DNA of 64,000 bases from Hyunsoonleella ulvae (lineage in GTDB: Bacteria > Bacteroidota > Bacteroidia > Flavobacteriales > Flavobacteriaceae). The notes beneath the pieces were generated by a model. It had not been told where the DNA came from. It ran no database searches and saw nothing but the letters and a program-made list of their open reading frames with translations. The position numbers and the translations under genes were made by a program. The stretch is taken from NCBI RefSeq assembly GCF_016827605.1, contig NZ_JAEPJQ010000002.1, positions 496,001 through 560,000 on the forward strand. The letters are read 5' to 3'. Of this stretch, positions 2,821 to 63,099 are shown in pieces (position 1 is the stretch's first letter; each line of letters opens with the position of its first letter).

Positions 2821-2838
2821 CTATCCTGTTGTATCTCG
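2821..2838 (-). promoter_or_regulatory. CAGGATAG-type element upstream of GH78
   Basis: CAGGATAG lies on the minus strand at 2828-2821, with a degenerate copy (CGAGA at 2838-2834) 10 bp further upstream. It sits 65-72 bp before the GH78 start. Of the 13 sites in the window this one has the weakest -7 element: only ATTG ends at the expected position, 2795. Confidence 0.5.
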
Positions 2839-3000
2839 ATTTATAGAAGTTATTTGATCTACGCTTATAATAAAGAATAATGCGTTTTTCCTTCTATTAT
2901 TTAGAAATCACCATACCAAGAACTTAATTAAAATTATATTCTTATTTCATTTTTTATGATGGATTCGGGTTTTTAGTTATTTTAGGAAATCATACTAACA

Positions 3001-3033
3001 AAAAACCAGAAAGTTAAACTTTCTGGTTTTTTT
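3001..3033 (-). terminator. Rho-independent terminator (bidirectional)
   Basis: A 14-bp perfect inverted repeat (AAAACCAGAAAGTT paired with AACTTTCTGGTTTT) is flanked by an A-run on the left and a T-run on the right, so it can work in both directions. In the minus direction it closes the PL24-FnIII transcript, about 110 bp after the stop at 3146. Confidence 0.8.
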
Positions 3034-3145
3034 ATTTTTATATCTATTATGTTGTGAATTCTAAATAAGAATCAATTAAAAAATAATTATCTATTATTAA
3101 CTTGATTTATTACTTTCAGCACAACAAGTTTCTTTTGACACATAA

Positions 3146-3847
3146 TTATTTGGTAGTAAAACTCCAAATTTGACCTATAGTGGTTCCTCCATTTCCATCT
3201 TTTACAACTATTTTAAAATAGTAAGTTGAAGCTGCTGCTAAACCGGTAGCATTATATGTTGTTTCAGATTGATTTTCTGAAACTTTTGTTGTTGGATCAC
3301 TATCTGTATCTAAATACACATCGTAAATTAAACTATCGTTATCCACATCACTAGCTGTCCAACTTAGTGTTGTACTAGTGGCATCTATTTCAGAGTTTAA
3401 TGCAGGTTCAACAAGGCTAGGAGCAAATGGTAAATGGTTAGAAACACCATCACCTTCAACCAAAAATTGACTAATGGCAGAATATGCACTTTCCTCTCCC
3501 TTACTATCTCTGGATTTTAGCCGCCAATAATACGATTTCCCTTTCTCTAAGCTAATAACTCTAGACGTTGTCGAGCTTGAAACATCATATGCTAGCGAGG
3601 AGAAGTCACTTTGTTCAGATACTTCAACTCTATAAGTTATCGTATTTCCTTCATTATCTGTAGAAGCATTCCATTCAAAAATTACGTTATTATCAATACA
3701 CAACGTATTGCTTAATGGATAAACCTGAACAGGGACAGAAGGTGCAGTGTTTACTGGATCTGGTTCTGGTGTACTATCATCCCCACCACTACTACATGAC
3801 AAGATAATACTTGCGAGAGCTACTAAATATATATATGACTTTTTCAT
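3146..3847 (-). CDS. Lipoprotein with two fibronectin type III-like domains
   Basis: This 233-residue protein has a clear lipobox (IILSCSSGGDD) followed by an acidic, proline-rich linker. Two Fn3-like modules follow, at about residues 35-130 and 138-232. The second contains WTAS, TTYNATGL and YYFKIVVKDGNG, and it ends in WSFTT, typical of Fn3 strands. No catalytic motif is visible. Its ATG lies one nucleotide past the stop of the PL24-like lyase, so the two are almost certainly cotranscribed. The acidic residues after the lipid-bearing Cys fit a surface-exported flavobacterial lipoprotein. A role in holding the glycan or the lyase at the surface is inferred only from this pairing. Confidence 0.75.
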   Translation of the reverse strand: MKKSYIYLVALASIILSCSSGGDDSTPEPDPVNTAPSVPVQVYPLSNTLCIDNNVIFEWNASTDNEGNTITYRVEVSEQSDFSSLAYDVSSSTTSRVISLEKGKSYYWRLKSRDSKGEESAYSAISQFLVEGDGVSNHLPFAPSLVEPALNSEIDATSTTLSWTASDVDNDSLIYDVYLDTDSDPTTKVSENQSETTYNATGLAAASTYYFKIVVKDGNGGTTIGQIWSFTTK

Positions 3848-3848
3848 T

Positions 3849-6035
3849 TTAATTTTTTATTAACTTAATAAATACTGGCTTTTCTACATTTATTTTTACA
3901 AAATAAATACCGTTAGGCTTATCTTCTATGTTCAACATCATTTTCCTCGAGTTTGCCTGATATTTCTTCACATCGATTAACTGAGAATGAATATTATATA
4001 TTTCTACATCTACTGCCTTTAAATTATTTGGCATAAAAATCTCAAATACACCATCAGAAGGGTTTGGATAAGCCTTAATGTCTTCAAGAAGATTTACAGT
4101 TTTTACCATTTCTCCTTGACACGCATCTTTACTTTTTACAACCAGATTATCGCCATGGTTTACTTGCACATTGAATTTGGACTGATATGTTTCCATAATT
4201 TGAGTTCCATTTTTGTAAACCGTGTAAGGAGGAGCCCCCTCATCAACAGATACCTCTACAGATTGCTTAACAACTTGCATCTTACCAGACAAATTAATCC
4301 CTCCTTCAATTACTACTTCATAGCAATGGTTATAATTTTCTCCTACTACTTCAATACAAAAATCGTAAGTTCCTGGACTCAAGTCTTCAATCGTGGCATC
4401 TTTAGTAAAGTTGTAATCTACACCATTAATAGTTGTAGCATAATCATGAACTGCCCCTGCATTAATAACCAGTTTACCATTATTTTTACCTACACATGTC
4501 TCACCAACAGATTGAATAGTAAAATTATCAGGTCCCAAAGGGTCTACTGGGACAATACCTAAATCGATAATTTGTAGATATAATGGCTGCGCATTACCAG
4601 AACTATCTTCCATCAAATAATAGTATGCTTTTCCATTTTCTATATGAACAACGCCGTGATCATACTGTCTTCCACTGGTAGCCTCATAAACCCTCTCAAA
4701 ATTATCAGTTCCACCTTCTGCTTTGTCTACAACAACTCTACCGTTATTTAAGCCTACTGCATAAACATTAGCCCCAGATGTGTAAAACGAACCTGCTATA
4801 GATTTTTCTGTAGTTATAAACTCTGTAGCACCTGCCGGTTTGTAAGTGTGTAAGCTTTTAGTTACGTTACTATCTAAATCTCGTACCTGACTCTTAATAT
4901 GTACATCACCATTGGCGGTTACCGTCCAATCAAATCCACCAACTATATGTACTCTATTTGGATTTGTTGTCTCTACGTAATCTCCAGGTTCCATGACTTT
5001 TATAAAATCAGCATCCCATAATGGAAGACTAAAAGATTCTCCTTTATAATTCTTCCAACCCGTAGCAGCCGTTTGATCATCTGAATAGGCATAATATACT
5101 CCATTTTGATAAAGATATTTATCATCATTATTTTGAGATCTGCGTTGAAAACCAATACGAAACTTACCGTTTACGTATTTCATATCACCGTAAAGTCCCC
5201 AATTATAATCAATCCCTGGTTGGCTTCTTGCATTTAACCTATTAAAATCTATGAAGTTACCCCATTCTCCAGTATTGGCATCATATTTTACAAACTTATA
5301 CATACCATTGTTATTTCCACCTTCACGCATAAGCATAAAAATTTCTCCATCATCATTTTGGAAGAATCTTGGGTAGGTTAATGATACGAATTCTGATTGA
5401 GCAGCAGTTCCCGGCATTCTTAAATGCTTATATCCACCGCTACCATTTTGAACAAATTTATCCAAAGTAAAATCAGCATCTGGTAACGAAGCTGCATCTT
5501 TAACTGAATATGAATATCTAAAATAATCATTAGCTAGACTTCCATTAGATGGTCTTGAAGCACTATAAGCATGCATATCGTACAATAAATGAATTGTTCC
5601 GTCTAAAGGACTTATACCAACAGCTATGGTATTATGAGATTCTCCAATCCAGTATTGATTTTGATACCCCGTATGCCTATGAGGAAACTCGATGGTTGCC
5701 ATTGTGCCGGTTACTATATTGTAGCGGGTAAGCATTACATGGCGGTCTGCTTTACCACCACGATACCAAGTCATGAAAACATAATCCCCATAGGTTTTTA
5801 TGGCATCTCCATGAGCTGAGATATTTCTCCCAAAAAAATAGTCATAAGGAGCATTATCTCCAGTATTTGAAGCTCCGCTAGTTACTTTACTACCATCGAA
5901 ATGTAGACCTAAGTCTGTAATTTTAACTTCGGTTTCTAAAACAACTTGAGCATTTAAAGTGACAGAGAGTATCAGCACTACAACTATTAAGACATAGTTA
6001 TGCAAACTCTTTTTTCGAGAGTATTCTTTTTTCAT
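3849..6035 (-). CDS. PL24-like ulvan lyase (BNR-type beta-propeller) with T9SS sorting domain
   Basis: This 728-residue secreted protein has a signal peptide (cleavage near residue 29) and a beta-propeller of the BNR-4 type at about residues 40-500. The conserved segment GESHNTIAVG...DGTIHLLYDMH places two histidines, H134 and H155, 21 residues apart. That matches my recollection of the catalytic His pair of PL24 ulvan lyases; PL25 has a similar fold and pair. An Ig-like linker module follows (about 510-650), then a C-terminal type IX secretion sorting domain (YPNPSDGVFEI to the end). It should be exported across the outer membrane and cut ulvan by beta-elimination next to uronic acid. It is first in a two-gene transcript with the FnIII lipoprotein, from a CAGGATG/TAAATTTG promoter. 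PL25 or another propeller lyase remains possible. Confidence 0.75.
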   Translation of the reverse strand: MKKEYSRKKSLHNYVLIVVVLILSVTLNAQVVLETEVKITDLGLHFDGSKVTSGASNTGDNAPYDYFFGRNISAHGDAIKTYGDYVFMTWYRGGKADRHVMLTRYNIVTGTMATIEFPHRHTGYQNQYWIGESHNTIAVGISPLDGTIHLLYDMHAYSASRPSNGSLANDYFRYSYSVKDAASLPDADFTLDKFVQNGSGGYKHLRMPGTAAQSEFVSLTYPRFFQNDDGEIFMLMREGGNNNGMYKFVKYDANTGEWGNFIDFNRLNARSQPGIDYNWGLYGDMKYVNGKFRIGFQRRSQNNDDKYLYQNGVYYAYSDDQTAATGWKNYKGESFSLPLWDADFIKVMEPGDYVETTNPNRVHIVGGFDWTVTANGDVHIKSQVRDLDSNVTKSLHTYKPAGATEFITTEKSIAGSFYTSGANVYAVGLNNGRVVVDKAEGGTDNFERVYEATSGRQYDHGVVHIENGKAYYYLMEDSSGNAQPLYLQIIDLGIVPVDPLGPDNFTIQSVGETCVGKNNGKLVINAGAVHDYATTINGVDYNFTKDATIEDLSPGTYDFCIEVVGENYNHCYEVVIEGGINLSGKMQVVKQSVEVSVDEGAPPYTVYKNGTQIMETYQSKFNVQVNHGDNLVVKSKDACQGEMVKTVNLLEDIKAYPNPSDGVFEIFMPNNLKAVDVEIYNIHSQLIDVKKYQANSRKMMLNIEDKPNGIYFVKINVEKPVFIKLIKN

Positions 6036-6077
6036 AATTTTTCTTTTTATTACCTTATTTAATAAGGCTTACATATA

Positions 6078-6111
6078 CAAATTTATGTAATTTCAATAAA
6101 AAAGCATCCTG
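6078..6111 (-). promoter_or_regulatory. CAGGATG element plus TAAATTTG -7 box for PL24-like gene
   Basis: On the minus strand CAGGATG (6111-6105) is followed by a perfect flavobacterial -7 element, TAAATTTG (6085-6078). The last A of CAGGA is 29 nt from the last G of the box. There is no TTTG -33 element; the CAGGA element occupies that position. Confidence 0.7.
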
Positions 6112-6157
6112 TAGTATGCTGACGACGTTTTAAGAATTATCTTCTCCTAAAAATTAA

Positions 6158-7445: not shown

Positions 7446-7508
7446 AATTTAAGTTTTTAAAAAGTTAATATTTAGTCTGTTAGTCATTAGAAAGACTACA
7501 ATTTGGTA

Positions 7509-7552
7509 CAAATTAAAAAAAATGAATAAATAGACTATCCTGCACTAACCTG
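7509..7552 (-). promoter_or_regulatory. Tandem CAGGATAG/CAGGTTAG element with -7 box
   Basis: Reading the minus strand, CAGGTTAG (7552-7545) and CAGGATAG (7542-7535) form a direct repeat with a 10-bp period. TTAATTTG (7516-7509), one mismatch from TAnnTTTG, ends 29 nt from the gene-proximal copy. Confidence 0.65.
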
Positions 7553-7626: not shown

Positions 7627-9801
7627 CTATTTTACAGTTAAAACTACTTTTTGCAAATCTTTTTCTAAGGAAGAAGTCCCTACTGATATAGTGAAAGTTC
7701 CTGGCTCTACTACTTTTTGCATATCACTGTTTAATAAATTTAATTCGTTAAAACCTATTTTAAATGTAACTGTTTTAGTTTCTCCTGGCTTTAAAGTGAT
7801 TCGCTCAAATCCTTTTAGCATCTTTAGATAGCGACCAACAGATGCGTAATCGTCCCTAACATACATTTGCACAACCTCATCACCCTCTTTATCTCCAATA
7901 TTAGTAACGTTTACTGAAATAGTTGTGGAACCATCTACTGGAATTGATTCTTTTTCAAGCTTTGGGGTACTATATTCAAAAGTTGTATAACTTAAACCGT
8001 ATCCAAATGGGAATAAGGGCGATTTATCAGTAAAACGATACTTTCCTTTTCCAGATCCAATAAAGTCAGGACGCTCCAGATAAGTTACAGGAACTTGCCC
8101 AACAGATCGTGGGAAAGACATCGTTAGTTTTCCACCTGGATTAACATCCCCAAAAATTACGTTTGCAACGGCATCTCCTGCTCTCATACCTCCATACCAC
8201 GTTTCAAGTACAGACGGTATATTTTCGGCGATGTAGTTTATACTCAATGGGCGACCATTAATCAAAATAACAATTACTGGTTTTCCTGTTTTATGGATCA
8301 ACTCTACCAATTCATTTTGTACGCCATATAAATCAAGATCGGAACGATCGCCGCCCTCACCACAGGTTTTGTGAGAGCTACCCACAACCAGAACAATAGC
8401 ATCCGATTTTTTTGCAGCAGCAACAGCCTCGGGAAATCCGTCTTTTGAAAAACTGTCTATATCGCAACCTTTAGCGTAATTTATTTTTACATTATTACCT
8501 ACTTTTTTCTTCAAACCATCTAAAACAGAGACATAGTATGGCGGTAACCCTGAATACCCTCCCAACAACTTATATGTTCCCTTTTTAGGTCTTTCTTCAT
8601 GTGCATTAGGGCCTATGACAGCTAAAGATTTTATTTTTGATACATCAAGAGGTAAAAGTTTATTATCATTTTTAAGCATGATAATAGATTTTTCAGCAAT
8701 TTCTAATGCAAACTCACGATGTTCGTCTGTTCCAGCCTCTACAGTTTCCTCATCAATTTCTTTTGGTTCTGAATCAAATAAGCCTAATTTATATTTGGCG
8801 GTTAAAACACGTGATGTGGCTTTATCTATATATTTCATCAATGCAGGATCCTGTATTACTGTATCCTTCAAAATATTATTATGATACGTTGCCAGGTCTA
8901 CGTTTTTACCAATTACCAAGTCCATGTCAACACCTGCTTTTAAGCCTAAAATAGCAGCTTCGGTTCTGGTTTCAGCTATAAAATGCATGGTTTGTAATCT
9001 CCCTACATCATTGTTGTCGGATACAATAAAACCATCAAATCCTAACTCATCTCGTAGGATATCCTTTAACAACCATGTATTCATATGGCATGGAACACCG
9101 TTAAAATCTTGATGCCCCGGCATAGCACAGCCTACCCCTGCTTCTTTTACTGCAGCTTCGAAGGGTGGAAGGTAAACCTCACGCAAACGACGTTCGGACA
9201 TATCGCTAAATCCACCATTTATACCACGGCGGTTTTCAGGGTATCCAACAAAATGTTTAGCCGTTGCAATCACATGATTTTCATCAAATTGCTCATTACC
9301 CGTTCCTTGTAACCCTTGAATAAATGCCACACCCATTCGAGACACCAAATAAGGATCCTCTCCATAGGATTCTTCAACACGACCGTAGCGGGCATCTCCT
9401 GCGTAAACATCTAAATTAGGGGAGTAACAATGCGTAACACCCAAAGCCCGCGCTTCTAGTGCTGTTTGAGACGCCATTTTTTTAATAAGTTCTGGTTCCC
9501 AAGTTGAGGCACAGGCCACCGCTTGTGGGTAAACTGTCGTATTGCCATAATAGTCAAGAACAAGCCATAATCCGTGTAATGCTTCTCCATATTTCATAAA
9601 TGGAATACCTAATCTTTCATTGGCAGGAGCATCTTGTGTTAATTCTGCTATTTTTTCGTCTAAGGTCATTTGACTTAATAGCGCTTCTACTTTTTCATTT
9701 ATTTTTTGATCTTTTTCATTTGCTTTTAAAGTTGATGTCTCAGATTGACAACTTTTAAAAAAGAAACTAACTAAAACTAGTACAAAAACAGAGTTTTTCA
9801 T
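7627..9801 (-). CDS. GH3 family beta-glycosidase lipoprotein
   Basis: This 724-residue GH3 enzyme has a lipoprotein-like N-terminus (FFFKSCQS). The (beta/alpha)8 domain carries AKHFVGYPENRRG (K182-H183) and the nucleophile region GFDGFIVSDNND with Asp262. The alpha/beta sandwich domain follows (about 390-600, with GPNAHEE and GEGGDRSDLDL), then a C-terminal Fn3-like domain. GH3 enzymes of this layout remove beta-linked glucose, xylose or related residues by a retaining mechanism. The usual SDW after the nucleophile reads SDN, so the subsite differs from the common form. Monocistronic, with its own tandem element promoter. In this locus xylose release from ulvan oligosaccharides is a reasonable guess; exact specificity cannot be read from the sequence. 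Confidence 0.9.
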   Translation of the reverse strand: MKNSVFVLVLVSFFFKSCQSETSTLKANEKDQKINEKVEALLSQMTLDEKIAELTQDAPANERLGIPFMKYGEALHGLWLVLDYYGNTTVYPQAVACASTWEPELIKKMASQTALEARALGVTHCYSPNLDVYAGDARYGRVEESYGEDPYLVSRMGVAFIQGLQGTGNEQFDENHVIATAKHFVGYPENRRGINGGFSDMSERRLREVYLPPFEAAVKEAGVGCAMPGHQDFNGVPCHMNTWLLKDILRDELGFDGFIVSDNNDVGRLQTMHFIAETRTEAAILGLKAGVDMDLVIGKNVDLATYHNNILKDTVIQDPALMKYIDKATSRVLTAKYKLGLFDSEPKEIDEETVEAGTDEHREFALEIAEKSIIMLKNDNKLLPLDVSKIKSLAVIGPNAHEERPKKGTYKLLGGYSGLPPYYVSVLDGLKKKVGNNVKINYAKGCDIDSFSKDGFPEAVAAAKKSDAIVLVVGSSHKTCGEGGDRSDLDLYGVQNELVELIHKTGKPVIVILINGRPLSINYIAENIPSVLETWYGGMRAGDAVANVIFGDVNPGGKLTMSFPRSVGQVPVTYLERPDFIGSGKGKYRFTDKSPLFPFGYGLSYTTFEYSTPKLEKESIPVDGSTTISVNVTNIGDKEGDEVVQMYVRDDYASVGRYLKMLKGFERITLKPGETKTVTFKIGFNELNLLNSDMQKVVEPGTFTISVGTSSLEKDLQKVVLTVK

Positions 9802-14606: not shown

Positions 14607-14680
14607 CTAAAATATTTCTTAAAAATTAATGGAGTGTCCTGCACTACCCGTTATGAACTGTCCTGTTATGCTCTATCCTG
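14607..14680 (-). promoter_or_regulatory. Array of CAGGA elements with -7 box for SusC
   Basis: On the minus strand the elements are CAGGATAG (14680-14673), CAGGACAG (14665-14658), CGGGTAG (14650-14644) and CAGGACA (14641-14635). TATTTTAG (14614-14607), a TAnnTTTG variant, ends 30 nt from the gene-proximal CAGGA. Spacings between copies are about 10 to 15 bp. Confidence 0.7.
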
Positions 14681-21638: not shown

Positions 21639-21726
21639 ATTTTTGTGTGTTAATTTTGGTTATTTCAGATAGAGATAATCAACTATTTATACCGGAAGAT
21701 GCTCCAACATTTTCCGGTTTTTTTTA
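21600..21726 (+). ncRNA. Candidate cis-antisense sRNA over the STN-susC leader
   Basis: On the strand opposite to susC, a possible promoter (GTTG at 21565-21568, 18-bp spacer, CATATTTG at 21587-21594, one mismatch from TAnnTTTG) is followed about 100 nt later by the terminator at 21691-21726. The RNA would be about 125 nt and would cover the susC start codon (21638) and ribosome binding region. Both ends are predictions. Confidence 0.35.
21691..21726 (+). terminator. Terminator oriented antisense to susC
   Basis: ACCGGAAGATG pairs with CATTTTCCGGT (one G-T pair) and is followed by eight T on the plus strand. The minus transcript of FecR-SusC would form the same stem with a mismatch and no T-run, so the plus strand is the proper reading. 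Confidence 0.7.
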
Positions 21727-21801
21727 CACCTATCTGTTTTAAAAGTTTGTTAGTTTTTTGTCATTCTAATTTGTATTCATATAGTGTGTTTTAGTTAAAG
21801 T

Positions 21802-23116: not shown

Positions 23117-23731
23117 TTATATCCAACCAGAAATCAATAGAAGTAATCCTAATGTGATATCTTTATCACTTAAAATAAAACTACGAAGGGTTTCCAAAGC
23201 ACGACTCATTTGGTTTCTTACTGTATTTGGAGAGATACCGAGTTCTTGGCTAATGTCTTCATAGCTTTTGCCATCGTTTCTAGACATCTCGAAAATTAAT
23301 CGTCTTTTAGGCGGTAATTGCCCTAAAGCGTTTTGTTTTAAAACTTCCAAATCGGCTTCTCTCATATACCTATCTGTGGAATTTAAGAACTTTTGCCCTC
23401 TGTAGAAGACCTCTTCCCTTAGTTTGAGGTTATTTGCCGCTTTTTTTAGAAACTTAATGTTTTTGTTTCTTGTTATGGTAAAAATATAAGCTTTAAAAGA
23501 AAGTTCAGGATTTAGTGTATAACGTTTTGTCCACACTTTTAAGAATACATCTTGAACAATATCTTTGGCATAAACTTCAGAACACACCATACTAAGACTA
23601 TACTTGTACAAATCATCCCTATACGCATCAAAGAGCTTTCGGAACGCTTCTTCGTTACCTTGAACAAGCTCCTGTATAAGTACTTTTTCATTATGTTTTT
23701 CCTTTCCTGTCATTTTAATAACAGCTAACAA
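23117..23731 (-). CDS. ECF RNA polymerase sigma factor
   Basis: This 204-residue sigma-70 family protein has sigma-2 (LFDAYRDDLYKYSLSM, then DIVQDVFLKVWTKR) and sigma-4 (GKSYEDISQELGISPNTV) regions. A short hydrophobic C-terminal tail follows (ITLGLLLLISGWI). The first Met is at 23731; a second at residue 7 (23713) is equally possible. It pairs with the adjacent FecR and presumably transcribes its own SusCD operon. A CAGGATAC-type element lies about 280 bp upstream (24016), so its expression may be tied to the polysaccharide regulon. The same hydrophobic tail feature is found in the second sigma of the window. Confidence 0.93.
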   Translation of the reverse strand: MLAVIKMTGKEKHNEKVLIQELVQGNEEAFRKLFDAYRDDLYKYSLSMVCSEVYAKDIVQDVFLKVWTKRYTLNPELSFKAYIFTITRNKNIKFLKKAANNLKLREEVFYRGQKFLNSTDRYMREADLEVLKQNALGQLPPKRRLIFEMSRNDGKSYEDISQELGISPNTVRNQMSRALETLRSFILSDKDITLGLLLLISGWI

Positions 23732-43039: not shown

Positions 43040-43084
43040 CAAAAATAACGCCTTATTAACTAAAAACAGACCTGTAGTGTCATG
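43040..43084 (-). promoter_or_regulatory. CAGGT/CATGA element with perfect -7 box for GH39-GH5
   Basis: On the minus strand CATGA (43084-43080) and CAGGT (43074-43070) are 10 bp apart. A perfect TATTTTTG (43047-43040) ends 30 nt from the proximal copy. The operator is weaker than elsewhere, but the -7 box is among the best. Confidence 0.6.
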
Positions 43085-43104: not shown

Positions 43105-43869
43105 CTATAAATGCTTGATAAATATATTTTTATACTCTATTTTCATTGGGGGGCCAACATGCACTTGTACACCAATGTAACCTTTCATGGTTCTGTTTAT
43201 TGTATCTAAATCGGTAACTTCACTCATCAAAACACCATTTACATAATGTTGCATTGTATTTCCGTTTACTTTTATGTAAACTTTATTCCAGGCATTTGCC
43301 TTAATGTTTGATTTTAATTGAGATTTAGAACCTAAAGTATCCACCACTGTTCTTGTTTGCCAACAATTCTTTTTTACATGTTTACGGAGATTATTTTTTG
43401 GAATGCTATCTGGCATTTTGGCAATGTTTACTTTTTCTCCCATGTATGCCAATGTGGTACGCTTTTTTTCTTCGTAGTTCTGCCCCGTATATCTGTTTCT
43501 ACCATCTATATCGCACTGATAGCCTCTTAGTGCAAATGGTATGCCTTCTATCATTTCACTTCTATAATTAACACCGCTGTTCCCTAACTCTGAAACTCTA
43601 TATTCTAGTTTTAATTCAAAATTGTCGGGTTGTTCTTTGTTATAGATTATGAATGAATTGCGTTTTAAAATTGTTTCTGGTGTAACCTCGCCGATTAGTA
43701 TACCATTTTCAACACGCCAATACTTAGGATCTCCTTCCCAACCGTCTAAGTTCTCACCATTAAATATAGACTTAAAAACATTAACCTTGTTGCTTGTTGC
43801 TTCTTTGCATGAAAAAACACAAATGGAAAACAAAACTAATAGGACATAACAAACTCTGTTTCTTACCAT
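43105..43869 (-). CDS. DUF1080 (3-keto-disaccharide hydrolase-type) lipoprotein
   Basis: This 254-residue lipoprotein (LFSICVFSCKEATS) has one DUF1080 domain: FNGENLDGWEGDPKYWRVENG at the start, NSGVNYRSE in the middle and a final YIGVQVHVGPPMKIEYKNI. The concanavalin-like fold is shared with enzymes that cleave oxidised (3-keto) disaccharides, and with binding proteins. It is the only gene between two element-bearing promoters and is divergent from the second sigma gene. In the polysaccharide regulon by promoter type; its substrate is unknown. Confidence 0.85.
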   Translation of the reverse strand: MVRNRVCYVLLVLFSICVFSCKEATSNKVNVFKSIFNGENLDGWEGDPKYWRVENGILIGEVTPETILKRNSFIIYNKEQPDNFELKLEYRVSELGNSGVNYRSEMIEGIPFALRGYQCDIDGRNRYTGQNYEEKKRTTLAYMGEKVNIAKMPDSIPKNNLRKHVKKNCWQTRTVVDTLGSKSQLKSNIKANAWNKVYIKVNGNTMQHYVNGVLMSEVTDLDTINRTMKGYIGVQVHVGPPMKIEYKNIFIKHL

Positions 43870-43907: not shown

Positions 43908-43952
43908 GAAATTTAAACTATTCAAAAAATATATTCATCCTGAACAGTACTG
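43908..43952 (-). promoter_or_regulatory. CAGTA/CAGGATGA element with -7 box for DUF1080
   Basis: On the minus strand CAGTA (43952-43948) and CAGGATGA (43942-43935) have a 10-bp period. TAAATTTC (43915-43908), one mismatch from TAnnTTTG, ends 30 nt from the proximal copy. Confidence 0.65.
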
Positions 43953-44067
43953 GAAACATAAAATTAAGAGGATAAATGTTTAAGAAAATAAACCTATTAT
44001 CAATACTTAGTTTAGCCTAAAATATCCTATACGCAGTAAAATCTAAGGTTTTCTATACATAATTGTA

Positions 44068-44102
44068 CAGGATAGTATTACTCTTTTTTGAGTCTATATT
44101 TA
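44068..44102 (+). promoter_or_regulatory. CAGGATAG element with -7 box for second ECF sigma
   Basis: CAGGATAG (44068-44075) is followed by TATATTTA (44095-44102), one mismatch from TAnnTTTG. The spacing from the last A of CAGGA to the end of the box is 30 nt. The predicted leader to the sigma start is about 165 nt. Confidence 0.65.
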
Positions 44103-44274: not shown

Positions 44275-44844
44275 ATGAACCAAAAAAGAATTCTTTTTGA
44301 AATACAGAATAAAAATCATTCGGCTTTTAAAGAAATTTTCAATGAATACTATTTTGATTTAGTTGTGTTTGCAAACCAATATCTATTCGATAAAGGTTTA
44401 AGTGAAGATGTAGTACAAAACGTATACATTTACCTTTGGGAAAAAGCTGATACAATTGAAATAAAATCAAGCTTAAAAGCATACTTGTATGCTATGGTAA
44501 GAAACCGCTGTTTAAACAAATTAAAAGCACTCAAAATTACTTACACTGATGATAAATTTATTTTAGACTACGCTAATAAAAATGCCCAAACACCTTATGT
44601 CTTAGAAGATAACAGCAAACAAATTCTTCACCAGAAAATAATGGAATCTATTGAAGACTTGCCTAACAAAATGAAATTGATTGTAAAGCTTCGGTTTATA
44701 AATAACTATAAATACAAAGAAATTGCAAACGAGTTAAATATTTCCGTAAACACGGTTAAGACTCAATTAAAAAGAGCTAAGGTAAAATTAACTCAGTTTA
44801 TTCTTTTTTCTATAACATTCATTTTAACCATAGTACTCCTCTAG
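44275..44844 (+). CDS. ECF RNA polymerase sigma factor
   Basis: This 189-residue sigma-70 family protein has sigma-2 (FKEIFNEYYFDLVVFANQYL, then SEDVVQNVYIYLWEKAD) and sigma-4 (YKYKEIANELNISVNTVKTQ) regions. It ends in a strongly hydrophobic tail (FILFSITFILTIVLL) like a membrane anchor, a feature shared by many Bacteroidota sigma factors paired with FecR. It heads a plus-strand cassette of sigma, FecR, STN-SusC and SusD. A CAGGATAG promoter lies about 200 bp upstream, tying the cassette to the polysaccharide regulon. Confidence 0.93.
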   Translation: MNQKRILFEIQNKNHSAFKEIFNEYYFDLVVFANQYLFDKGLSEDVVQNVYIYLWEKADTIEIKSSLKAYLYAMVRNRCLNKLKALKITYTDDKFILDYANKNAQTPYVLEDNSKQILHQKIMESIEDLPNKMKLIVKLRFINNYKYKEIANELNISVNTVKTQLKRAKVKLTQFILFSITFILTIVLL

Positions 44845-46166: not shown

Positions 46167-46170
46167 TAAC

Positions 46171-46217
46171 AAAAAAATGGGTGGTGTCTAGACCTGGAAA
46201 ATTTAAACAACCACCCA
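46171..46217 (-). terminator. Terminator oriented antisense to susC
   Basis: TGGGTGGT (46178-46185) and ACCACCCA (46210-46217) form an 8-bp perfect stem. On the minus strand it is followed by seven T. In the FecR-SusC sense direction the T-run is missing, as at 21691-21726. Confidence 0.65.
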
Positions 46218-46262
46218 AGAGATTCATTAAAAACCGATTAACTAATTATTAACGAACATTCA
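46171..46262 (-). ncRNA. Candidate cis-antisense sRNA over the second STN-susC leader
   Basis: On the minus strand a perfect TAAATTTG (46268-46261) overlaps the susC start codon. It is followed about 45 nt later by a terminator hairpin (46217-46178) with seven T. An RNA of about 90 nt would be complementary to the susC leader. A matching -33 box for this -7 is not obvious; TTAGTTTG at 46283-46276 is a second candidate. Ends are predicted. Confidence 0.35.
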
Positions 46263-46267
46263 AATTT

Positions 46268-54770: not shown

Positions 54771-57626
54771 TTAGTGTTTTGAATATTTGATGTTATATTC
54801 TCCAGAACTCAAAATTACGGCGTCATTAGTAATTTCAACGGTGTTGTTTTCTTTAAATTCTGAAATAGGAGTTCCATTAATTTCAAGGCTTTCTAATTCT
54901 GATGTGGTTACCACAACTTTAGCTTTTGTATTAAATGGCACTGTAAGATTCATGTTTAGCATTTTATTATCTGTATGCCATTTATTAATAATAGTACCAT
55001 AAGGTGTTGGGACAGATACTGCTGTTTTTGTAATGGCTCTTGGAAACTCAGGGTTTACAATAAACATTTTATACCCAGGGTCAGATTCAGAAGATTTTAT
55101 TCCTCCCAGAGATTCATAAAAATAAGCTGCAAAACCACTATGCATAGGGTGGTTTAACGAGTTGGTTGGTCCCGTCATTTTCTCCCATTCAAACTGACGC
55201 TCTGGCCATGTTGTAAAACCTTTACTCATTACGTACGCTTGACTTGGAAATTCTGGTGTTGTTAAAATTTGATGTGCTAAATCTGCTTTACCATATTTGG
55301 TTAATACTGTGTATATGTAGCGGTTACCATGAATTCCTGTAGAGTGATGTCCGCCTTTAACGGTAACAATATCATGTACCAACCCGTTTACTACACTTTC
55401 AATTTCGTTATCTGGCACCATACCAAACTGTAAGGCTTGTACTGTTGCGGTTTGACTTTGATACCATTTGTGATTTGTTTCTGGAATGTCAACCAAAAAT
55501 TCTTTGTTGAATGCTGTTTTTAATGCTTCTTTTTCTTGCTTCATTTTCAACTCATAATCTGTATCATTATTCATTCTTGCAAATCGCTGCATAATACCCA
55601 ACACATCATAAAAATAGGCATTTGCTGAAATTATAGGATCGCACTCCATGGCACTTGGGTTTTTACGTCTATCCCAACGTGGTGGACACCAATCGCCCAT
55701 ACCATCGTGCATGATACCGTTTTCGCCTTTAAAGTTTAAATAGAAATCTGTTAAGCCTTTCATAGCATCATAATATTCTAATACAATGGCATCATCGCCA
55801 TAAAACTTGTAATTATACCATGGTAAATACATGGTAGCTATTCCCCAATCTATTTTTGCATAGGTAGATGTGCGTTTTCCTGGAGCAATCATTGTAGGCA
55901 CTTTAAACTTAAACTCTGGATTGTTATGCCCTTTCGTTGGTCGCATTTGCGTACGTATATCCTCCATGTATTTCTTGTAGAAATCGTACATATCGTAGTT
56001 GTACAAAGCATACTCACAAAATGCATGTGCATCTCCTAACCAACCACATTTTTCGCGATGTGGACAATCTTCTGGAATACCATGTACATTGTCTACGATA
56101 GTCCATTTACTAATGCTATGCATTTTGTTAAGTAAATCATCTGAGGATGTAAAACTTCCTGTTTCTTGAATATCGGTTGCTACCAAAACCGCCTTAATCA
56201 TTTTGTTATCTGGTTTTGTAGAAACACCTTTTACTTTGGCGTATCTAAATCCATGATAACTAAATTTGGGCTCCCAAGATTCTACCTCATCTCCTTTACA
56301 TATATACTCATAAATTTGTGACATACCGTTGGCACCGCCACCAGTAGAACCCAGAAAAATATCACTACCGTCTGTTAGTAATGCCTCGGTAGTTATAACT
56401 TCAATAAGTTGCCCTTCTTTTTCTTTCACATTTAATTTTACCCAACCTGCAATATTTTGACCAAAATCTACAATCCATTCGCCATCGGCTCCTTTAAAAA
56501 CACGTTGTGGCTCAAACTCTTTCAATTTTTTTATTGCGGGAATTTGTTGTGCACTTATTTTTCTTGTCTTTGGACTTGCCTCTTTGGCTAAACCCCATTG
56601 CTCATCGTTGTAGCCTACGGTTGCCCAATCTCCTAATTCATATCTAGCATCATAGGTATCGCCACCATAAATGTTATTAAACACTATAGATCCTGTAGCT
56701 TCTTTCCAACTTTTGTCTGTATAAAAATCTTCCTTAGAACCATCGGTATATGTTAGTTTTACTAAACAGCGTACTGTTGGTGGTCCAAAAGCCAAATCTC
56801 TATCAGACTCGGGGTCGTTTTTCCAAGAAATATTTTGTCCGTAAAACCCATTTCCTAAGTTAATACCGAAGGCATTTTTACCAGATTTTAAATCTTCAGT
56901 AATATCATAATTCACATAATAGGCTTGCTTATCATAGTTTGAAGGTGCAGGGTCCAACACATGGTCACCCACCTTTTCTCCATTTAAAAATAGTTCGTAA
57001 AGGCCCAAACCGCAAATGTAAACTTGAGCATTATCAATGTGCTTTTCAATATTAAACTCTTTCCTAAAATAACTTGCAGGGAAACCAGCTACAGGCATTG
57101 GCTTATCCATTCGCCCTGTTTTATAATCTCTAAAACGATATTCTGAAGTTCTGGTATCGTTGTTTAGTGTAATCCATTTTGAATTGCCCCAATTTTCTAG
57201 GGTCATTAATCCCATTTTAAACTCTTGAGGATCTGACCAATTTGAACTATCCCCATTTTCATCCCAAATCTTAACTTTCCAAAAATAGGTTTGCAGCGCC
57301 TTTAAAGCTTCGCCTTGATATTTTATAAAAGCTGATGTTTCACTATTAACTTTTCCAGAATCCCATATATCTGAATCATCTTCGTTTAATTTATCTTTAG
57401 AAGATGCTACTAAAAGATGATATGCGGATTGCGATTTGTGCTCTCCTTTGGTGGTTAATACCCATGAAAACAAAGGGTTTTCGTTTTCAATAGTTGATGG
57501 ATTTTCTTTTGAATTTACTAATAAGTTTTCAAAAGACATTGGTGTTCTTGAAGTGGAAACCTGCTTACATGACACACAGAAAATAGCTATTAGTGCTAAG
57601 GATAGTAATGATTGTTTGTTTTTCAT
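54771..57626 (-). CDS. Alpha-L-rhamnosidase, GH78
   Basis: This 951-residue lipoprotein (ALIAIFCVSCKQ) has the full GH78 layout: Fn3-like N-domain, a carbohydrate-binding jelly roll (FLNGEKVGDHVLDPAPSNYD), a second beta-domain, the (alpha/alpha)6 catalytic domain and a C-terminal beta-domain. The catalytic signature reads DCPHREKCGWLGDA, not the DCPQRDERLGWTGDA of the first GH78 in the window, so it belongs to another branch. HPMHSGFAAYFYESLGG near the C-terminal end of the barrel is typical. It heads the GH78-GH43-sulfatase operon and has its own element-bearing promoter at 57673-57717. Confidence 0.92.
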   Translation of the reverse strand: MKNKQSLLSLALIAIFCVSCKQVSTSRTPMSFENLLVNSKENPSTIENENPLFSWVLTTKGEHKSQSAYHLLVASSKDKLNEDDSDIWDSGKVNSETSAFIKYQGEALKALQTYFWKVKIWDENGDSSNWSDPQEFKMGLMTLENWGNSKWITLNNDTRTSEYRFRDYKTGRMDKPMPVAGFPASYFRKEFNIEKHIDNAQVYICGLGLYELFLNGEKVGDHVLDPAPSNYDKQAYYVNYDITEDLKSGKNAFGINLGNGFYGQNISWKNDPESDRDLAFGPPTVRCLVKLTYTDGSKEDFYTDKSWKEATGSIVFNNIYGGDTYDARYELGDWATVGYNDEQWGLAKEASPKTRKISAQQIPAIKKLKEFEPQRVFKGADGEWIVDFGQNIAGWVKLNVKEKEGQLIEVITTEALLTDGSDIFLGSTGGGANGMSQIYEYICKGDEVESWEPKFSYHGFRYAKVKGVSTKPDNKMIKAVLVATDIQETGSFTSSDDLLNKMHSISKWTIVDNVHGIPEDCPHREKCGWLGDAHAFCEYALYNYDMYDFYKKYMEDIRTQMRPTKGHNNPEFKFKVPTMIAPGKRTSTYAKIDWGIATMYLPWYNYKFYGDDAIVLEYYDAMKGLTDFYLNFKGENGIMHDGMGDWCPPRWDRRKNPSAMECDPIISANAYFYDVLGIMQRFARMNNDTDYELKMKQEKEALKTAFNKEFLVDIPETNHKWYQSQTATVQALQFGMVPDNEIESVVNGLVHDIVTVKGGHHSTGIHGNRYIYTVLTKYGKADLAHQILTTPEFPSQAYVMSKGFTTWPERQFEWEKMTGPTNSLNHPMHSGFAAYFYESLGGIKSSESDPGYKMFIVNPEFPRAITKTAVSVPTPYGTIINKWHTDNKMLNMNLTVPFNTKAKVVVTTSELESLEINGTPISEFKENNTVEITNDAVILSSGEYNIKYSKH

Positions 57627-57672: not shown

Positions 57673-57717
57673 GAAAAATATCAATATCATTAACACTTTT
57701 CATCCTGTACTCTCATG
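57673..57717 (-). promoter_or_regulatory. CATGA/CAGGATGA element with -7 box for GH78 operon
   Basis: On the minus strand CATGA (57717-57713) and CAGGATGA (57707-57700) have a 10-bp period. TATTTTTC (57680-57673), one mismatch from TAnnTTTG, ends 30 nt from the proximal copy. Confidence 0.65.
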
Positions 57718-57880: not shown

Positions 57881-57924
57881 CAGGATAGAACAGGATAGAA
57901 AGCTTTGTTTATTGCATAATTTTA
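57881..57924 (+). promoter_or_regulatory. Perfect tandem CAGGATAGAA repeat with -7 box
   Basis: CAGGATAGAA occurs twice in succession (57881-57890 and 57891-57900), the clearest operator pair of the window. TAATTTTA (57917-57924), one mismatch from TAnnTTTG, ends 29 nt from the proximal CAGGA. Confidence 0.75.
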
Positions 57925-57986
57925 ACAGTTGTAAGATTTTTAAATCAAATCTTAAAGCCCCAATATAAACTTAAAACTACTTTAAA

Positions 57987-59218: not shown

Positions 59219-60199
59219 ATGAAAAACTATTCTTTTAGAGCAATCTACCTATGCCTAGGTTTATTATTAGTTGCTAATTTTTCCTGTTCAAATGATGAAG
59301 AACTCCTGGAAACCGAGCAAGAGGTATCTGAACAAGAGCCATTAATAAAAAATGATGAAACACTAAGTGCACGAACCAAAGGAAATAAAATATCTGGTTG
59401 CGACAACCCAAAGGGGTATCGCATATATACAGTAGGAGAACTTAGTGGTTTAAGTGATAGTGATGACTATGTATCTAAAACAGCTATCAACGGCACAGGA
59501 GTAGACGTGATGAGAGACCTAGACGATAGAACTTGTGCGTTTAATTATGAACAAGAAAAAAGAGGTGCGTATGAATACGGAAAGTACAAATTAAAAGCAG
59601 GCTCTAACGAATACGATAATTTACAACCAAGAATAGAACGCACCACTAAAAAAGTAGACAGAAAAAATGGAAATTTTGTAAGCGTTGAAGGTTATGTAAG
59701 AATTAGAAGAGTAGGAAATAAACCATCTGGTAATAACTTTTCGAAAATTGATATGCGTGATAAACAAGGCACCTACATAATGCAAGCAAAGGGAACACAT
59801 TACAATAAAACGATTGGATCTGATGACCCAGCAATAGCACTACTTGTTGCAAAAGCTGGGGCTAATGGCAGTTTTGATATTTACAGAGAACAAATTACAA
59901 AACGTGGTGGCTCAGGTGTTGATGGTAGAAAATTAGTGTTTTTAAAAAATGTACCTGGAGACAGGAGAGTTAAGGTAAAAATGGTTAATGGTTGGAACAC
60001 TAGTACTAGACAATATGTAGAGGTTACTATTAGTGGTTCTAAATTTTCTTGGAATGTTCCAAATACACTAGTAGAAATTAATGGAACAAACAAATATCAA
60101 ACAGGTAGAGATGCCAAAATAAGATTTGGTGCATATAGATGTCATGCAGGTGAAGCAGATATTTGGTGGTCTGACGTTAAACACAACTTTAAAGGCTAA
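59219..60199 (+). CDS. Jelly-roll lyase-related lipoprotein with altered active site
   Basis: This 326-residue lipoprotein (LVANFSCSNDEE) aligns with the gene at 57987 across the core: YGKYKLKAGSNEYDN, R138-I-E-R141, Q189 in YIMQAKG and RFGAY near the C-terminus. The His after the central Gln is replaced by Lys (K191) and the first Tyr of the RYGAY motif by Phe (F303). A 40-residue acidic spacer separates the lipid anchor from the domain. It is either a lyase with different chemistry or a non-catalytic glycan-binding paralog. It has its own element promoter and a strong terminator. No other family is recognised. Confidence 0.6.
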   Translation: MKNYSFRAIYLCLGLLLVANFSCSNDEELLETEQEVSEQEPLIKNDETLSARTKGNKISGCDNPKGYRIYTVGELSGLSDSDDYVSKTAINGTGVDVMRDLDDRTCAFNYEQEKRGAYEYGKYKLKAGSNEYDNLQPRIERTTKKVDRKNGNFVSVEGYVRIRRVGNKPSGNNFSKIDMRDKQGTYIMQAKGTHYNKTIGSDDPAIALLVAKAGANGSFDIYREQITKRGGSGVDGRKLVFLKNVPGDRRVKVKMVNGWNTSTRQYVEVTISGSKFSWNVPNTLVEINGTNKYQTGRDAKIRFGAYRCHAGEADIWWSDVKHNFKG

Positions 60200-60245: not shown

Positions 60246-60275
60246 AAAAAACTGCCATATTTGGCAGTTTTTTTT
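60246..60275 (+). terminator. Rho-independent terminator
   Basis: AAAAAACTGCCA pairs with TGGCAGTTTTTT around a 4-nt loop, followed by further T, 47 bp after the upstream stop. The flanking A-run also allows it to end the converging minus-strand transcript. Confidence 0.88.
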
Positions 60276-60328
60276 CTTTACAAGCTATAACAATAAATGT
60301 CTACTTTGAATTAATTAACTTTTGTAGT

Positions 60329-61552
60329 TTAAACATTTATAAAACTACTACAAACAGTTTTTAATTTTTTTTCGTTCAATTCTAATCCAAAACCAGGTTT
60401 TGGATCGAGGGTAAAATAGCCATCACTTCGTTTAGTGGTGGCAGATTTTAATATACATTCTAAATATTCTTTAGAGTCTTCTTCTTTCTCAATAGCCTCT
60501 ACCCAAGTAGCTCCGGCTCCAATAGCTATTTGTTGCCACGCAGAGCATGCAGGGCCTACCAAACTATCGTCGCCAATCATAACCTTTGCATCAATATCTT
60601 GTACCTTTTTTGCCAATAAGGCTGTATGATGAAAACTTCCCATGGTAGAAGGATGCAAGTTTATAATACGTCCCATGCCTTTTTGGAGTTTATTTACACC
60701 ATTCCAAGCTGGTCGCATGGGTGCATCTGGAATTAAATCTAAACCTCCTGTCATGTTTTGGAGTGTAATCCATTGTTTGACTGTTAGCGGTGCAGGGTCT
60801 TCTATGGCATTAAGCCCATGCTTTTTAAAAGTATTCAAAATCTCAGCCAATTCTCCTAGCGATTTCCATTTTTTATACCCTTTGTTTACATCAGAAATCA
60901 CAACAGCATCTTTTCCTAAAACTTCACGAATAATTCGTAGTAACTTTAAATCAACCTCAGCATCTCCATACATTTTAAACTTCATATGGTGCCCAAGGTT
61001 TTGCTTTAGACTTTTTTCAGCTTCTTCACGGACTTTGTTTTCATCTTTATGTAAAATACAATACAAGCCAGGAACGGCTTCTTTTTGGTGTAAACCTAAT
61101 AATTCAATTGAAGGTTTATTTTGTAAACGACCGGCCAAATCGAGTAAGCCCATGTCCATTAATTCTAAATATTTAAAAGACGTTTTTGAGCCTTTTACTT
61201 GTTGTAATTGCAATACCTTTTGTGCTTCTAAAACACTTAAACCTTTGAATTGTTTCACATAATGTACCCACGGACTCAAATCGACATCTGGATTATTTCT
61301 GGAAGCAGGAATTTCAGACCATCCATAATAATCCCCTGCACTAATTTTCATAAATATATGCTGACGATTCAACCACGTACCAAAAGAAAAATAGCGTGGA
61401 ATATTGATGTTGTATTGGTAAAATTCAATTTTTGTGATTTTTGTTGTCAATACGTCTTTATCGCTGATACAAGATGATAGCAAAGGATAGGATAAACTGA
61501 ACAACCCAACACTGGAGATACCTTTTATAAAACTTCTACGATTTGTTTTCAT
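60329..61552 (-). CDS. Enolase-superfamily (mandelate racemase-like) protein with Tat signal
   Basis: This 407-residue protein begins with a twin-arginine signal (NRRSFIKG) followed by a lipobox-like LLSSC, so it is probably exported folded and lipid-anchored. The body is an enolase-superfamily barrel: catalytic-type Lys pair K191/K193 in KFKMYGD and metal ligands D221 (ISDVN), E251 (AIEDPAP) and D276 (LIPDAP). Family members remove an alpha-proton from a carboxylate, as in sugar-acid dehydratases and racemases. A rhamnonate- or uronate-related acid would fit the locus, but the reaction is not readable. It is cotranscribed with the sulfatase, 15 bp away. Cytoplasmic location is usual for the superfamily, so the Tat signal is unusual. 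Confidence 0.8.
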   Translation of the reverse strand: MKTNRRSFIKGISSVGLFSLSYPLLSSCISDKDVLTTKITKIEFYQYNINIPRYFSFGTWLNRQHIFMKISAGDYYGWSEIPASRNNPDVDLSPWVHYVKQFKGLSVLEAQKVLQLQQVKGSKTSFKYLELMDMGLLDLAGRLQNKPSIELLGLHQKEAVPGLYCILHKDENKVREEAEKSLKQNLGHHMKFKMYGDAEVDLKLLRIIREVLGKDAVVISDVNKGYKKWKSLGELAEILNTFKKHGLNAIEDPAPLTVKQWITLQNMTGGLDLIPDAPMRPAWNGVNKLQKGMGRIINLHPSTMGSFHHTALLAKKVQDIDAKVMIGDDSLVGPACSAWQQIAIGAGATWVEAIEKEEDSKEYLECILKSATTKRSDGYFTLDPKPGFGLELNEKKLKTVCSSFINV

Positions 61553-61567
61553 TTGTAATATTTTCGT

Positions 61568-63028
61568 TTACCAAGGATCATTCATAGAAGTTAGCAATTC
61601 GGCTAATTCTGTTTCCATTTTTTGGTCTAGCTCAGCATTTTTACCCCAAATATTGGTCATTTGATAGGGGTCTTCAGCATCATGATATAGATAATGAAAC
61701 TTATTGCCATTTTCATGTTTTACAACAGCATAGGTATACTCTTTAGTCCTGAAACCTCTAGCATCGCCTTTTGATGCAAAACTTTTACCAGCAAAGTATA
61801 ACTGTTTTTCTGGACGGATGACTTCTTTATCGAAGAAAACATCAGAATAATCTACACCTTCAACTTTTTTTGGAATTTCAGTCTTTAAATTCATTAACCC
61901 TAACAATGTTGGCATATTATCTGGAACAGAAATCAACAAATCTTCAGTTTTAGGTTTTATTTTTTTAGGATAATGAACTATTAAAGGAATCCTATAAGCC
62001 TCTTTAAACCATACATTTTTATGCATTAAGCCTTGGCTTCCTAACATTTCTCCATGGTCTGCTGAAAACACAATAATAGTATTTTCATATAAGCCTTTCT
62101 CTTTTAATTTTTTGATAACACGACCTATTTGGTCATCAACCCCATTTACAGATGCGAAATAATCTTTGGCTTCATTTAAACGTTTTTCTACGCCATGGTC
62201 GCCTCTTTTTAACTCGTAATTATCTTTAAACTGAACATTAGGTCTGTTTAACACTTCTTTATAATCTAAGCCTTCATAACGTTTTTGGTAACGTTCTGGC
62301 ACTTGTTTAAATGGTGTATGTGGTGGATTGATAGACCAAAATAAAGCAAATGGCTCTTTACTTTTACGTTGATTCTCAGTATTGTCTAAATAATCGATAA
62401 TAACATCAGCCTCATGTTCAGCAGACCATTTTTTAGGATACACCTTATCTTCTTCCCCGCCATCAGTGGTCCAATAATACGGGTCGTTATGCCTGTTATG
62501 TGTTCCATACGCATACCAAAAAGAAAACCCATGCCTTCTATCTGGAGGACACCAAGTATCCCAAACGCGTTTTACATCTGGTGGTGTAGGTTCTGGACCA
62601 TCTAAATGCCATTTCCCTACATAACCTGCACTATAGCCATTATCAACTAAAACATCTGAAATACAAACTTCACTCTTCTTCAAATAGTTACCCAATGCGG
62701 TTCTTTGGGAATTACAGTTTTCTACAACACCTGTTGAAAGCGAATAACGCCCTGTCATTAACATGGCTCTATAAGGACTACACAATGGATTGTTTGCCAC
62801 AGCTTCACTAAAAAACACGCCTTCTTTGGCGAGTTGGTCTATATTTGGTGTGTACACAGGGTCTTCTTTTAAAAACCCTAAAGAAGCTTGCCTATATTGA
62901 TCTGCAAAAATGAAAAGAAGATTAGGTTTTTGTTCTATAGCCTTTTCTTTGGAAGTGTTGTGTTTACATGAAAAAACCATTAAAACTACGACAAGTAATA
63001 GATGTATTTTTGCCTTTAAAAAAGTCAT
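61568..63028 (-). CDS. S1 family sulfatase, lipoprotein
   Basis: This 486-residue sulfatase (LMVFSCKHN lipobox) has the maturation motif C83-S-P-Y-R87. Asp43-Gln44 in IFADQYRQ takes the place of the more common DD pair, as in some S1 subfamilies. YVGKWHLDG and SADHGEMLGSQGL complete the metal and sulfate sites. It differs clearly from the sulfatase at 51336 and probably acts on another sulfate position. The general pattern resembles S1_7-type enzymes reported from ulvan loci, but subfamily assignment needs a search. First gene of an operon with the enolase-superfamily protein. Confidence 0.9.
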   Translation of the reverse strand: MTFLKAKIHLLLVVVLMVFSCKHNTSKEKAIEQKPNLLFIFADQYRQASLGFLKEDPVYTPNIDQLAKEGVFFSEAVANNPLCSPYRAMLMTGRYSLSTGVVENCNSQRTALGNYLKKSEVCISDVLVDNGYSAGYVGKWHLDGPEPTPPDVKRVWDTWCPPDRRHGFSFWYAYGTHNRHNDPYYWTTDGGEEDKVYPKKWSAEHEADVIIDYLDNTENQRKSKEPFALFWSINPPHTPFKQVPERYQKRYEGLDYKEVLNRPNVQFKDNYELKRGDHGVEKRLNEAKDYFASVNGVDDQIGRVIKKLKEKGLYENTIIVFSADHGEMLGSQGLMHKNVWFKEAYRIPLIVHYPKKIKPKTEDLLISVPDNMPTLLGLMNLKTEIPKKVEGVDYSDVFFDKEVIRPEKQLYFAGKSFASKGDARGFRTKEYTYAVVKHENGNKFHYLYHDAEDPYQMTNIWGKNAELDQKMETELAELLTSMNDPW

Positions 63029-63064
63029 TTTTGAAATATCAATTTTTAAATGTTCTTATTTCAT

Positions 63065-63099
63065 CTAAATTATAGAAAAGTAATTATTTGAATATCCTG
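63065..63099 (-). promoter_or_regulatory. CAGGATAT element with -7 box for sulfatase operon
   Basis: On the minus strand CAGGATAT (63099-63092) precedes TAATTTAG (63072-63065), a TAnnTTTG variant. The spacing is 30 nt. Confidence 0.6.

Follow-up and report, generated by a model that had tools for sequence, protein, structure and literature searches.

A tandem 10-bp promoter element with fixed -7 spacing in an ulvan locus of Hyunsoonleella ulvae, and a GntR/LacI-type chimera as its candidate reader

Introduction

The algae of green tides have ulvan as the main polysaccharide of their cell walls. Polysaccharide utilization loci (PULs) are usually assigned to hybrid two-component systems (HTCS), SusR or extracytoplasmic function (ECF) sigma factors according to their gene neighbourhood. 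Here, a promoter element was analysed in a 64 000-nucleotide (nt) stretch of the genome of H. ulvae (G000, 4.06 Mb), referred to as the window (G000:C16:496001-560000). The window is part of an ulvan locus with genes for a PL28 ulvan lyase, a GH78 rhamnosidase, GH39, GH43, sulfatases and a RhaT-type transporter. An original prediction, made from the letters of the window, had placed a CAGGA-type operator at a fixed distance from a TAnnTTTG -7 box at 13 sites. It had proposed as reader an AraC-type HTCS encoded outside the window or, alternatively, a dedicated sigma factor. The element was recovered. On balance, it is probably the operator of GntR1, a regulator of the rhamnose pathway that would most likely activate from the -33 position.

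The closest described systems each share part of these features. In Zobellia, the alginate system is described as repressed by the GntR protein AusR (Dudek 2020; PMC7874173, PMC8286568). By its description, AusR resembles the present candidate in its family (GntR), in serving a polysaccharide system of a marine flavobacterium and in having operators in single to triple copies; it differs in that alginate is concerned there, whereas rhamnose/ulvan, a fixed -7 spacing and a missing -33 box, suggesting activation, are met here. The AraR subfamily has the same layout as GntR1, a GntR helix-turn-helix (HTH) domain with a GalR/LacI-type sensor (PMC4494728), but GntR1 matches solved AraR in the HTH only and the operator, if GntR1 is its reader, is a direct repeat. 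GntR sites are mostly palindromes, with FarR, NagQ and NanR as direct-repeat exceptions (PMC4494728). The predicted HTCS regulons of Bacteroides thetaiotaomicron, a species in which FucR is a GntR regulator, also have direct-repeat operators before SusCD and glycosidase genes; these have a period of about 21 bp and are attributed to an AraC domain, in contrast to the 10-bp period and GntR candidate of this study (PMC3878776). Among rhamnose regulators of other bacteria, AraC types have 21-bp repeats and DeoR types repeats of 10-11 bp; LacI types are described as well. They are alike in placing rhamnose genes under tandem repeats, the period of the DeoR-type RhaR being 10-11 bp, and they differ in family: AraC, DeoR and LacI are the families named, and the term GntR has 0 occurrences in the article (PMC3870299). 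In a literature search, no article on an ulvan-PUL regulator of this kind or on such an operator was found among the matches listed. For the octamer CAGGATAG, the proximal module of the element, the 10 articles listed of 928 with the string were unrelated by title, so this is weak evidence of absence. PMC12858550, in which the Escherichia coli rhamnose promoter is used, and PMC12125979, on a Vibrio regulator, do not bear on this regulator.

Architecture of the element in the window

The window sites are as follows (coordinates, strand, description, score):

2794..2838, minus strand: operator (CGAGATACAA-CAGGATAG) and -7 box before the first GH78 gene (label of the original prediction); 23.3 bits, E 3.3e-4
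6077..6121, minus strand: operator and -7 box TAAATTTG, 76 nt before the BNR_4/PL24-like gene 3849-6035; 25.0 bits; Pfam BNR_4
7508..7552, minus strand: double operator CAGGTTAGTG-CAGGATAG and -7 box before the gene of a 291-aa secreted protein; 30.0 bits, the best in the genome
9825..9869, minus strand: operator and -7 box before the GH3 gene 7627-9801; 22.1 bits; Pfam GH3
14607..14680, minus strand: array of four CAGGA/CGGG-like copies and -7 box before SusC (start 14575); 21.5 bits
23982..24026, minus strand: weak candidate with a poor upstream module, located 303 nt before the gene (23117-23713) of an ECF sigma factor; 12.2 bits (E 1.3 over the whole genome), leave-one-out score 4.5
43040..43084, minus strand: operator CATGACACTA-CAGGTCTG and -7 box before GH39-GH5; 23.9 bits; Pfam GH39, Cellulase
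43908..43952, minus strand: operator and -7 box before the DUF1080-type gene 43105-43869; 21.8 bits; Pfam 3keto-disac_hyd
44058..44102, plus strand: operator and -7 box, located 207 nt before an ECF sigma gene (44275-44844) that is followed by FecR, SusC and SusD; 22.6 bits; Pfam
57673..57717, minus strand: operator and -7 box before the GH78 gene 54771-57626; 18.0 bits; Pfam
57881..57925, plus strand: perfect tandem CAGGATAGAA-CAGGATAG and -7 box before the gene of a 294-aa lipoprotein-like product; 27.2 bits
59131..59175, plus strand: operator and -7 box before the PL28 ulvan lyase gene 59219-60199; 25.7 bits; Pfam PL28, 8.3e-71
63065..63109, minus strand: operator and -7 box before the sulfatase gene 61568-63028; 19.8 bits; Pfam Sulfatase

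A first position weight matrix (PWM) was built from 12 of these sites, the GH39 site being added later. Their ungapped alignment, anchored on CAGGA (which is thus invariant by construction), gave the consensus CAGnAYAGTA-CAGGATAG-N19-TAnnTT, in which a TAWWTT box starts at exactly +27, i.e. 27 nt past the first C, and a degenerate upstream module lies at exactly -10. A was found at +28 and T at +31 in 12/12 sites, and T at +32 in 11/12. The architecture is tighter than originally claimed, and the second copy seen 10 bp upstream was borne out. All 13 sites have the same orientation relative to their gene. Twelve of them stand as strong sites. The exception is the weak ECF site at 24016, so that the claim of an element before both ECF sigma genes stands for the gene 44275-44844 and is doubtful for the gene 23117-23713. 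As had been noted, the peptidase/aminotransferase region lacks the element (no intergenic PWM match above 9).

The operator is made of tandem 10-bp modules. Over 61 sites, the direct repeat gave 5.05/8 matches and the inverted one 2.4/8, and a palindromic operator was rejected. No column between -31 and -14 exceeded 0.47 bits in the 12 sites or 0.35 bits in 30 sites of the own genome. The octamer alone was not enriched in the window (CAGGATAG with at most one mismatch: 34 matches, 36 expected), so it is the architecture and not the single octamer that carries the enrichment. An exact CAGGATAG without the rest of the architecture lies at 2692-2699 (plus strand), inside the first GH78 gene and antisense to it. 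Intergenic and coding calls were made with an open reading frame (ORF) mask taking the longest ATG frame; this gene runs off the window edge and was hence unmasked, and the octamer at 2692 was wrongly scored as intergenic.

Recurrence of the element outside the window

The window and 120 kb of flanking DNA (184 kb, the C16 region) were compared with 14 control stretches of the same genome (280 kb in total). In the spacing test, only intergenic CAGGAY strings were selected and an AWWTT core was then sought at each offset (+27 and 35 others). The +27 offset fitted 10/19 cases in the window and 16/37 in the C16 region, whereas the other 35 offsets averaged 1.0 (binomial 6e-16). It also fitted 6/22 cases at a second locus on contig C20 (3e-5) and, in three other genomes, 8/20 in G268 (2e-6), 13/30 in G265 (4e-11) and 8/23 in G132 (4e-6). 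None of the 16 intergenic CAGGAY of the control stretches had the box at this distance. Equal frequency of the two-block pattern in unrelated DNA, which the original prediction had named as an outcome speaking against it, was thus not found, and the observation made in the window is confirmed.

With a score above 15, the 12-site PWM had 23 intergenic and 0 coding matches in the C16 region, 11 of the 23 being training sites, and no match in the control stretches. Left out one at a time, the training sites scored 4.5 to 29.6. The flanks contributed 10 further intergenic sites; for nine of them the stretch contained a downstream ORF, at a distance of 54-118 nt. Exact copies of CAGGATAG number 62 in the genome. 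Eleven are in the C16 region, 10 of them truly intergenic (11/11 according to the mask). Among the 51 others, 11 were scored as intergenic and two had the full architecture at the octamer, both at the C20 locus; a third full-architecture octamer outside the C16 region (C16:351827) was found via its neighbouring copy.

The whole-genome scan proposed in the original prediction was performed with R1, a 49-column sequence model trained on 30 sites of the own genome. At E <=0.0162, R1 gave 31 matches, 29 of which were training sites, and the score fell from 18.0 to 16.3 bits after the 31st match. The training site missed was the ECF site at 24016 (E 1.3). One of the two new matches, outside the training set and on a contig of neither locus, is located 53 nt upstream of a distant gene for a PL28 ulvan lyase (G000:C1:655623-656605, L130:3623-4605; PL28 E 2.6e-117). 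The other, about 100 nt before a Wzy_C O-antigen-ligase-like gene (L131:3817-5829, G000:C16:349817-351829), may be a regulon member or a chance match.

Seven further sites of the same operator were found at the C20 locus (C20:135-184 kb). Its genes (L100-L103, G000:C20:130001-210000) encode a GntR regulator (GntR2) with a site of its own, uronate-catabolism-like proteins, a TRAP transporter, SusCD, sulfatases and two HTCS; we take this content to resemble the uronate half of ulvan use. In G268 (2.2 Mb), an ulvan/uronate-like cluster (C1:45169-145225, L132-L137) has 18 PWM matches, 15 of them intergenic, and a single GntR1 gene, making it a natural minimal system. In the G265 cluster, 23/23 matches were intergenic. 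The regulon extends beyond the window and occupies two or more loci, and the earlier proposal of one polysaccharide regulon is supported.

Conservation was examined around relatives of the HTCS gene located next to the window (E <=1e-250, best two candidates per genome scored). In the promoter of the gene that follows it, mean pairwise identity over 8 genomes was 87% in the operator and 91% in the -7 box, both raised because the sites were picked by a PWM covering these two blocks, against 51% in the spacer and 31-39% in the flanks. Over 31 sites near such relatives in other genomes, two columns not used for selection fitted the -7 box (T33 in 22/31, G34 in 18/31).

The candidate reader

GntR1 is a GntR/LacI-type chimera encoded just beyond the window edge, in agreement with the earlier proposal of a regulator outside the window. 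Its distribution was surveyed in 397 Flavobacteriaceae genomes. Genomes with at least one R1 match at E <=0.01 were called motif-positive; matches were counted among the best 15 candidates per genome, and R1 E-values are rough, which limits the counts. GntR1 was called present at E <=1e-85, a cut fixed after the gap between the groups had been seen. Motif and GntR1 were both present in 78 genomes, the motif alone in 16, GntR1 alone in 2 and neither in 301 (phi 0.87, against 0.43 for HTCS and motif). The tallies treat related genomes as independent, and the corresponding p values are overstated because of this; at genus level, the motif was present in 73/237 genera and GntR1 in 59/237. The motif thus occurred in 78/80 genomes with GntR1, roughly a fifth of those sampled, and in 16/317 others, and all 58 genomes with at least three R1 matches had GntR1. 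In a chosen sample, GntR1 was found in 30/30 motif-rich (at least six matches) and 0/30 motif-free genomes, in which the best match was 1.4e-67 (37% identity). The rhamnose pathway alone does not explain the motif, because genomes with rhamnose isomerase (RhaI) are split by GntR1: the motif was present in 75/76 with GntR1 and 1/16 without it.

The distance between GntR1 and RhaI is at most 6 kb in 61/76 genomes with both (59/76 counting the best GntR1 copy only, G011 and G227 depending on the second-best). In several genomes the gene diverges from a site, as in the own L001 (site 897, minus strand; gene 1241, plus strand) and at the single GntR1 of G268 (site 45169, minus strand; gene 45398, plus strand). 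Each motif cluster taken had a GntR1-type gene (at least 50% identity) among its loci, with two exceptions: the own C20 locus, and the parts taken from G132, a genome whose two GntR1 genes appeared in the whole-genome search. The 14 control stretches contained none. The N-terminal GntR winged HTH (PF00392) was above cut-off in 4/4 proteins scanned (three GntR1 and GntR2). The C-terminal LacI-type sensor (PF13377, Peripla_BP_3) exceeded its cut-off of 26.5 in GntR1b (27.0) and GntR2 (33.6) and fell just under it in the two other GntR1 (25.2 and 24.4). The recognition helix YLSRDTVE(K/R)AY was present in 20/21 GntR1 proteins, one having VARAY. From these comparisons, the reader is very probably a rhamnose-type GntR/LacI chimera, whether it activates or represses.

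Co-occurrence cannot distinguish GntR1 from partners inherited with it, and another DNA-binding protein that travels with GntR1 and the rhamnose genes could read the element; we consider this very unlikely. In the G268 cluster, where part of the ORFs were scanned for domains, the sole other regulator recognized by eye was a LacI protein. It was rejected, being absent from the other motif clusters examined; its one other match was a 40% relative in control stretch L091.

The AraC-type HTCS of the original prediction was at first backed by its position and by the sites at its orthologues. An HTCS with all expected domains is encoded 8 kb left of the window (L002:7648-11694), it adjoins GntR1, and sites are found around relatives that have similar HTH domains. 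Both here and in relatives, a site comes directly after the HTCS gene. Its presence correlates with the motif in the survey, and HTCS of its own clade (at least 44% identity) were found in 13/30 motif-rich and 1/30 motif-free genomes of the 60 chosen. It was dropped because the motif occurs in genomes and clusters lacking this HTCS: at the cut used, the HTCS was present in 25 of the 94 motif genomes and missing from 69. No AraC-type HTH was found in the motif clusters of G268 and G265; the whole G268 genome has three AraC-HTH proteins (E <=1e-8; frames of 722, 329 and 389 aa), none of HTCS length and none in the cluster. Moreover, the operator period is exactly 10 bp, not the 21 bp or so of HTCS motifs. 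Reading of the element by this HTCS is accordingly very unlikely. It may act in the same pathway through other sites, or as a second partner at some promoters.

The HTCS and GntR1 genes adjoin at L002:7648-12952, beside a gene with a site, an arrangement of the two genes that is conserved in several genera (L007-L013, L016). A small AraC regulator is encoded at L004:5628-6515, with a similar protein in G132 (C7:216936-217811). This 295-aa protein of L004 was set aside as a reader on account of the G268 and G265 clusters, which are without AraC-type HTH.

Promoter geometry and mode of control

Promoters of the primary sigma factor of Bacteroidota have the consensus TTTG at -33 and TAnnTTTG at -7. 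For comparison, 73 TAnnTTTG promoters were taken from 60 other stretches of the own genome. A TTG starting 20-25 nt before the -7 box was present in 15/73 of these, with a modest peak at 22 nt (7/73; TTTG at 23 nt in 5/73), and in 0/30 regulon promoters, in line with the claim that the element takes the place of the TTTG -33 box. At sites of orthologous loci, TTG was found 21-25 nt before the box in 1/31. In the regulon promoters, the -33 slot is filled by the last bases of CAGGATAG and the -7 box is of the usual TAnnTTTG type. Extra CAKGAYA copies were counted at 89 strong sites: 35/89 had one at -10, 7 were at other upstream offsets and 2 downstream within 80 nt. This layout suggests an activator replacing the -33 contact and, from geometry, supports the earlier idea of a bound factor standing in for it.

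The same geometry was used to weigh a dedicated sigma factor reading CAGGA as its -33 box. In its favour, CAGGAT lies near the -33 distance and a strong site precedes one of the ECF sigma genes. The -7 box is nevertheless ordinary, also in the unselected columns T33 and G34, a second module 10 bp upstream is unexpected for a sigma contact, and no relative of either window ECF sigma was found among the ORFs of the G268 and G265 clusters at E <=0.01. The ECF sigma factors were rejected as readers, and a dedicated sigma factor appears extremely improbable.

If GntR1 is the reader, it would bind the tandem 10-bp modules, CAGnAYAGTA then CAGGATAG, on one DNA face. With the usual Bacteroidota numbering, the proximal module would cover about -40 to -33 and its last four bases would sit in the slot of the missing TTTG box, so that the primary sigma factor would contact mainly the TAnnTTTG -7 box. 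We infer that a sugar of the rhamnose pathway switches GntR1, which would then most likely recruit RNA polymerase from the -33 position, much like a class II activator. The regulon would join rhamnose-pathway genes, ulvan lyases, rhamnosidases, sulfatases, a SusCD pair, one ECF-sigma operon and the uronate-like locus. The complete scheme, in which a GntR/LacI chimera acts as a class-II-like activator on 10-bp direct repeats replacing the -33 box and a rhamnose signal commands the full set of polysaccharide-degrading genes, with an ECF-sigma/SusCD operon and a separate uronate locus among them, is put forward tentatively.

Alternatively, GntR1 could be a repressor: bound over the -33 region, it would block RNA polymerase until freed by a sugar of the rhamnose pathway. 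AusR provides the precedent, as a repressor from a marine flavobacterium with single, double or triple operator copies (PMC7874173, PMC8286568), and AraR, the namesake of the GntR/LacI chimeras, is called a repressor in its PDB entries. In such a mode, the distance to the -7 box need not be exact and the -33 box need not be missing, although the final three bases, TAG, could still act as a poor -33 element. In addition, hardly any of the extra copies lie downstream (2 over 89 sites). Repression by GntR1 is therefore judged rather unlikely, and activation the more likely of the two.

Several points weigh against GntR1 as the activating reader, in addition to the limits given with the survey counts. 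Well-studied GntR regulators, with AraR and AusR among the closest, are repressors, and most GntR sites are palindromic whereas this operator is a direct repeat (PMC4494728). Sixteen motif genomes, all with one or two matches, have no GntR1, and two GntR1 genomes (G217 and G236) have no motif match. The own C20 locus holds just the distant relative GntR2 (31-34% identity). As to the element itself, an R1 match of 16.3 bits, which speaks against its specificity, was found in control stretch L089, inside an ECF-like ORF (E 0.0068 among the 23 matches of the C16 region and controls, 0.06 in the whole-genome scan), and in other genomes several PWM matches above 15 lay in stretches called coding by the mask. 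The AlphaFold model of GntR1 (three-sequence input) was too poor (pLDDT 39) and was discarded.

The operator points to a cytoplasmic regulator of the monosaccharide type although an HTCS adjoins. If this holds, an internal compound of the rhamnose pathway would be the signal for ulvan use and the HTCS would have another part; the 49-nt profile would be a ready way of listing ulvan regulons and stray lyases in flavobacterial genomes. The sites also form a clean promoter set for studying a Bacteroidota sigma factor working without a -33 contact.

Additional observations

Inverted repeats were seen by eye between FecR and SusC in both ECF operons of the window, at 21640-21760 (accggaa/ttccggt) and at 46170-46267 (gggtggt/accaccc). 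They are possible attenuators.

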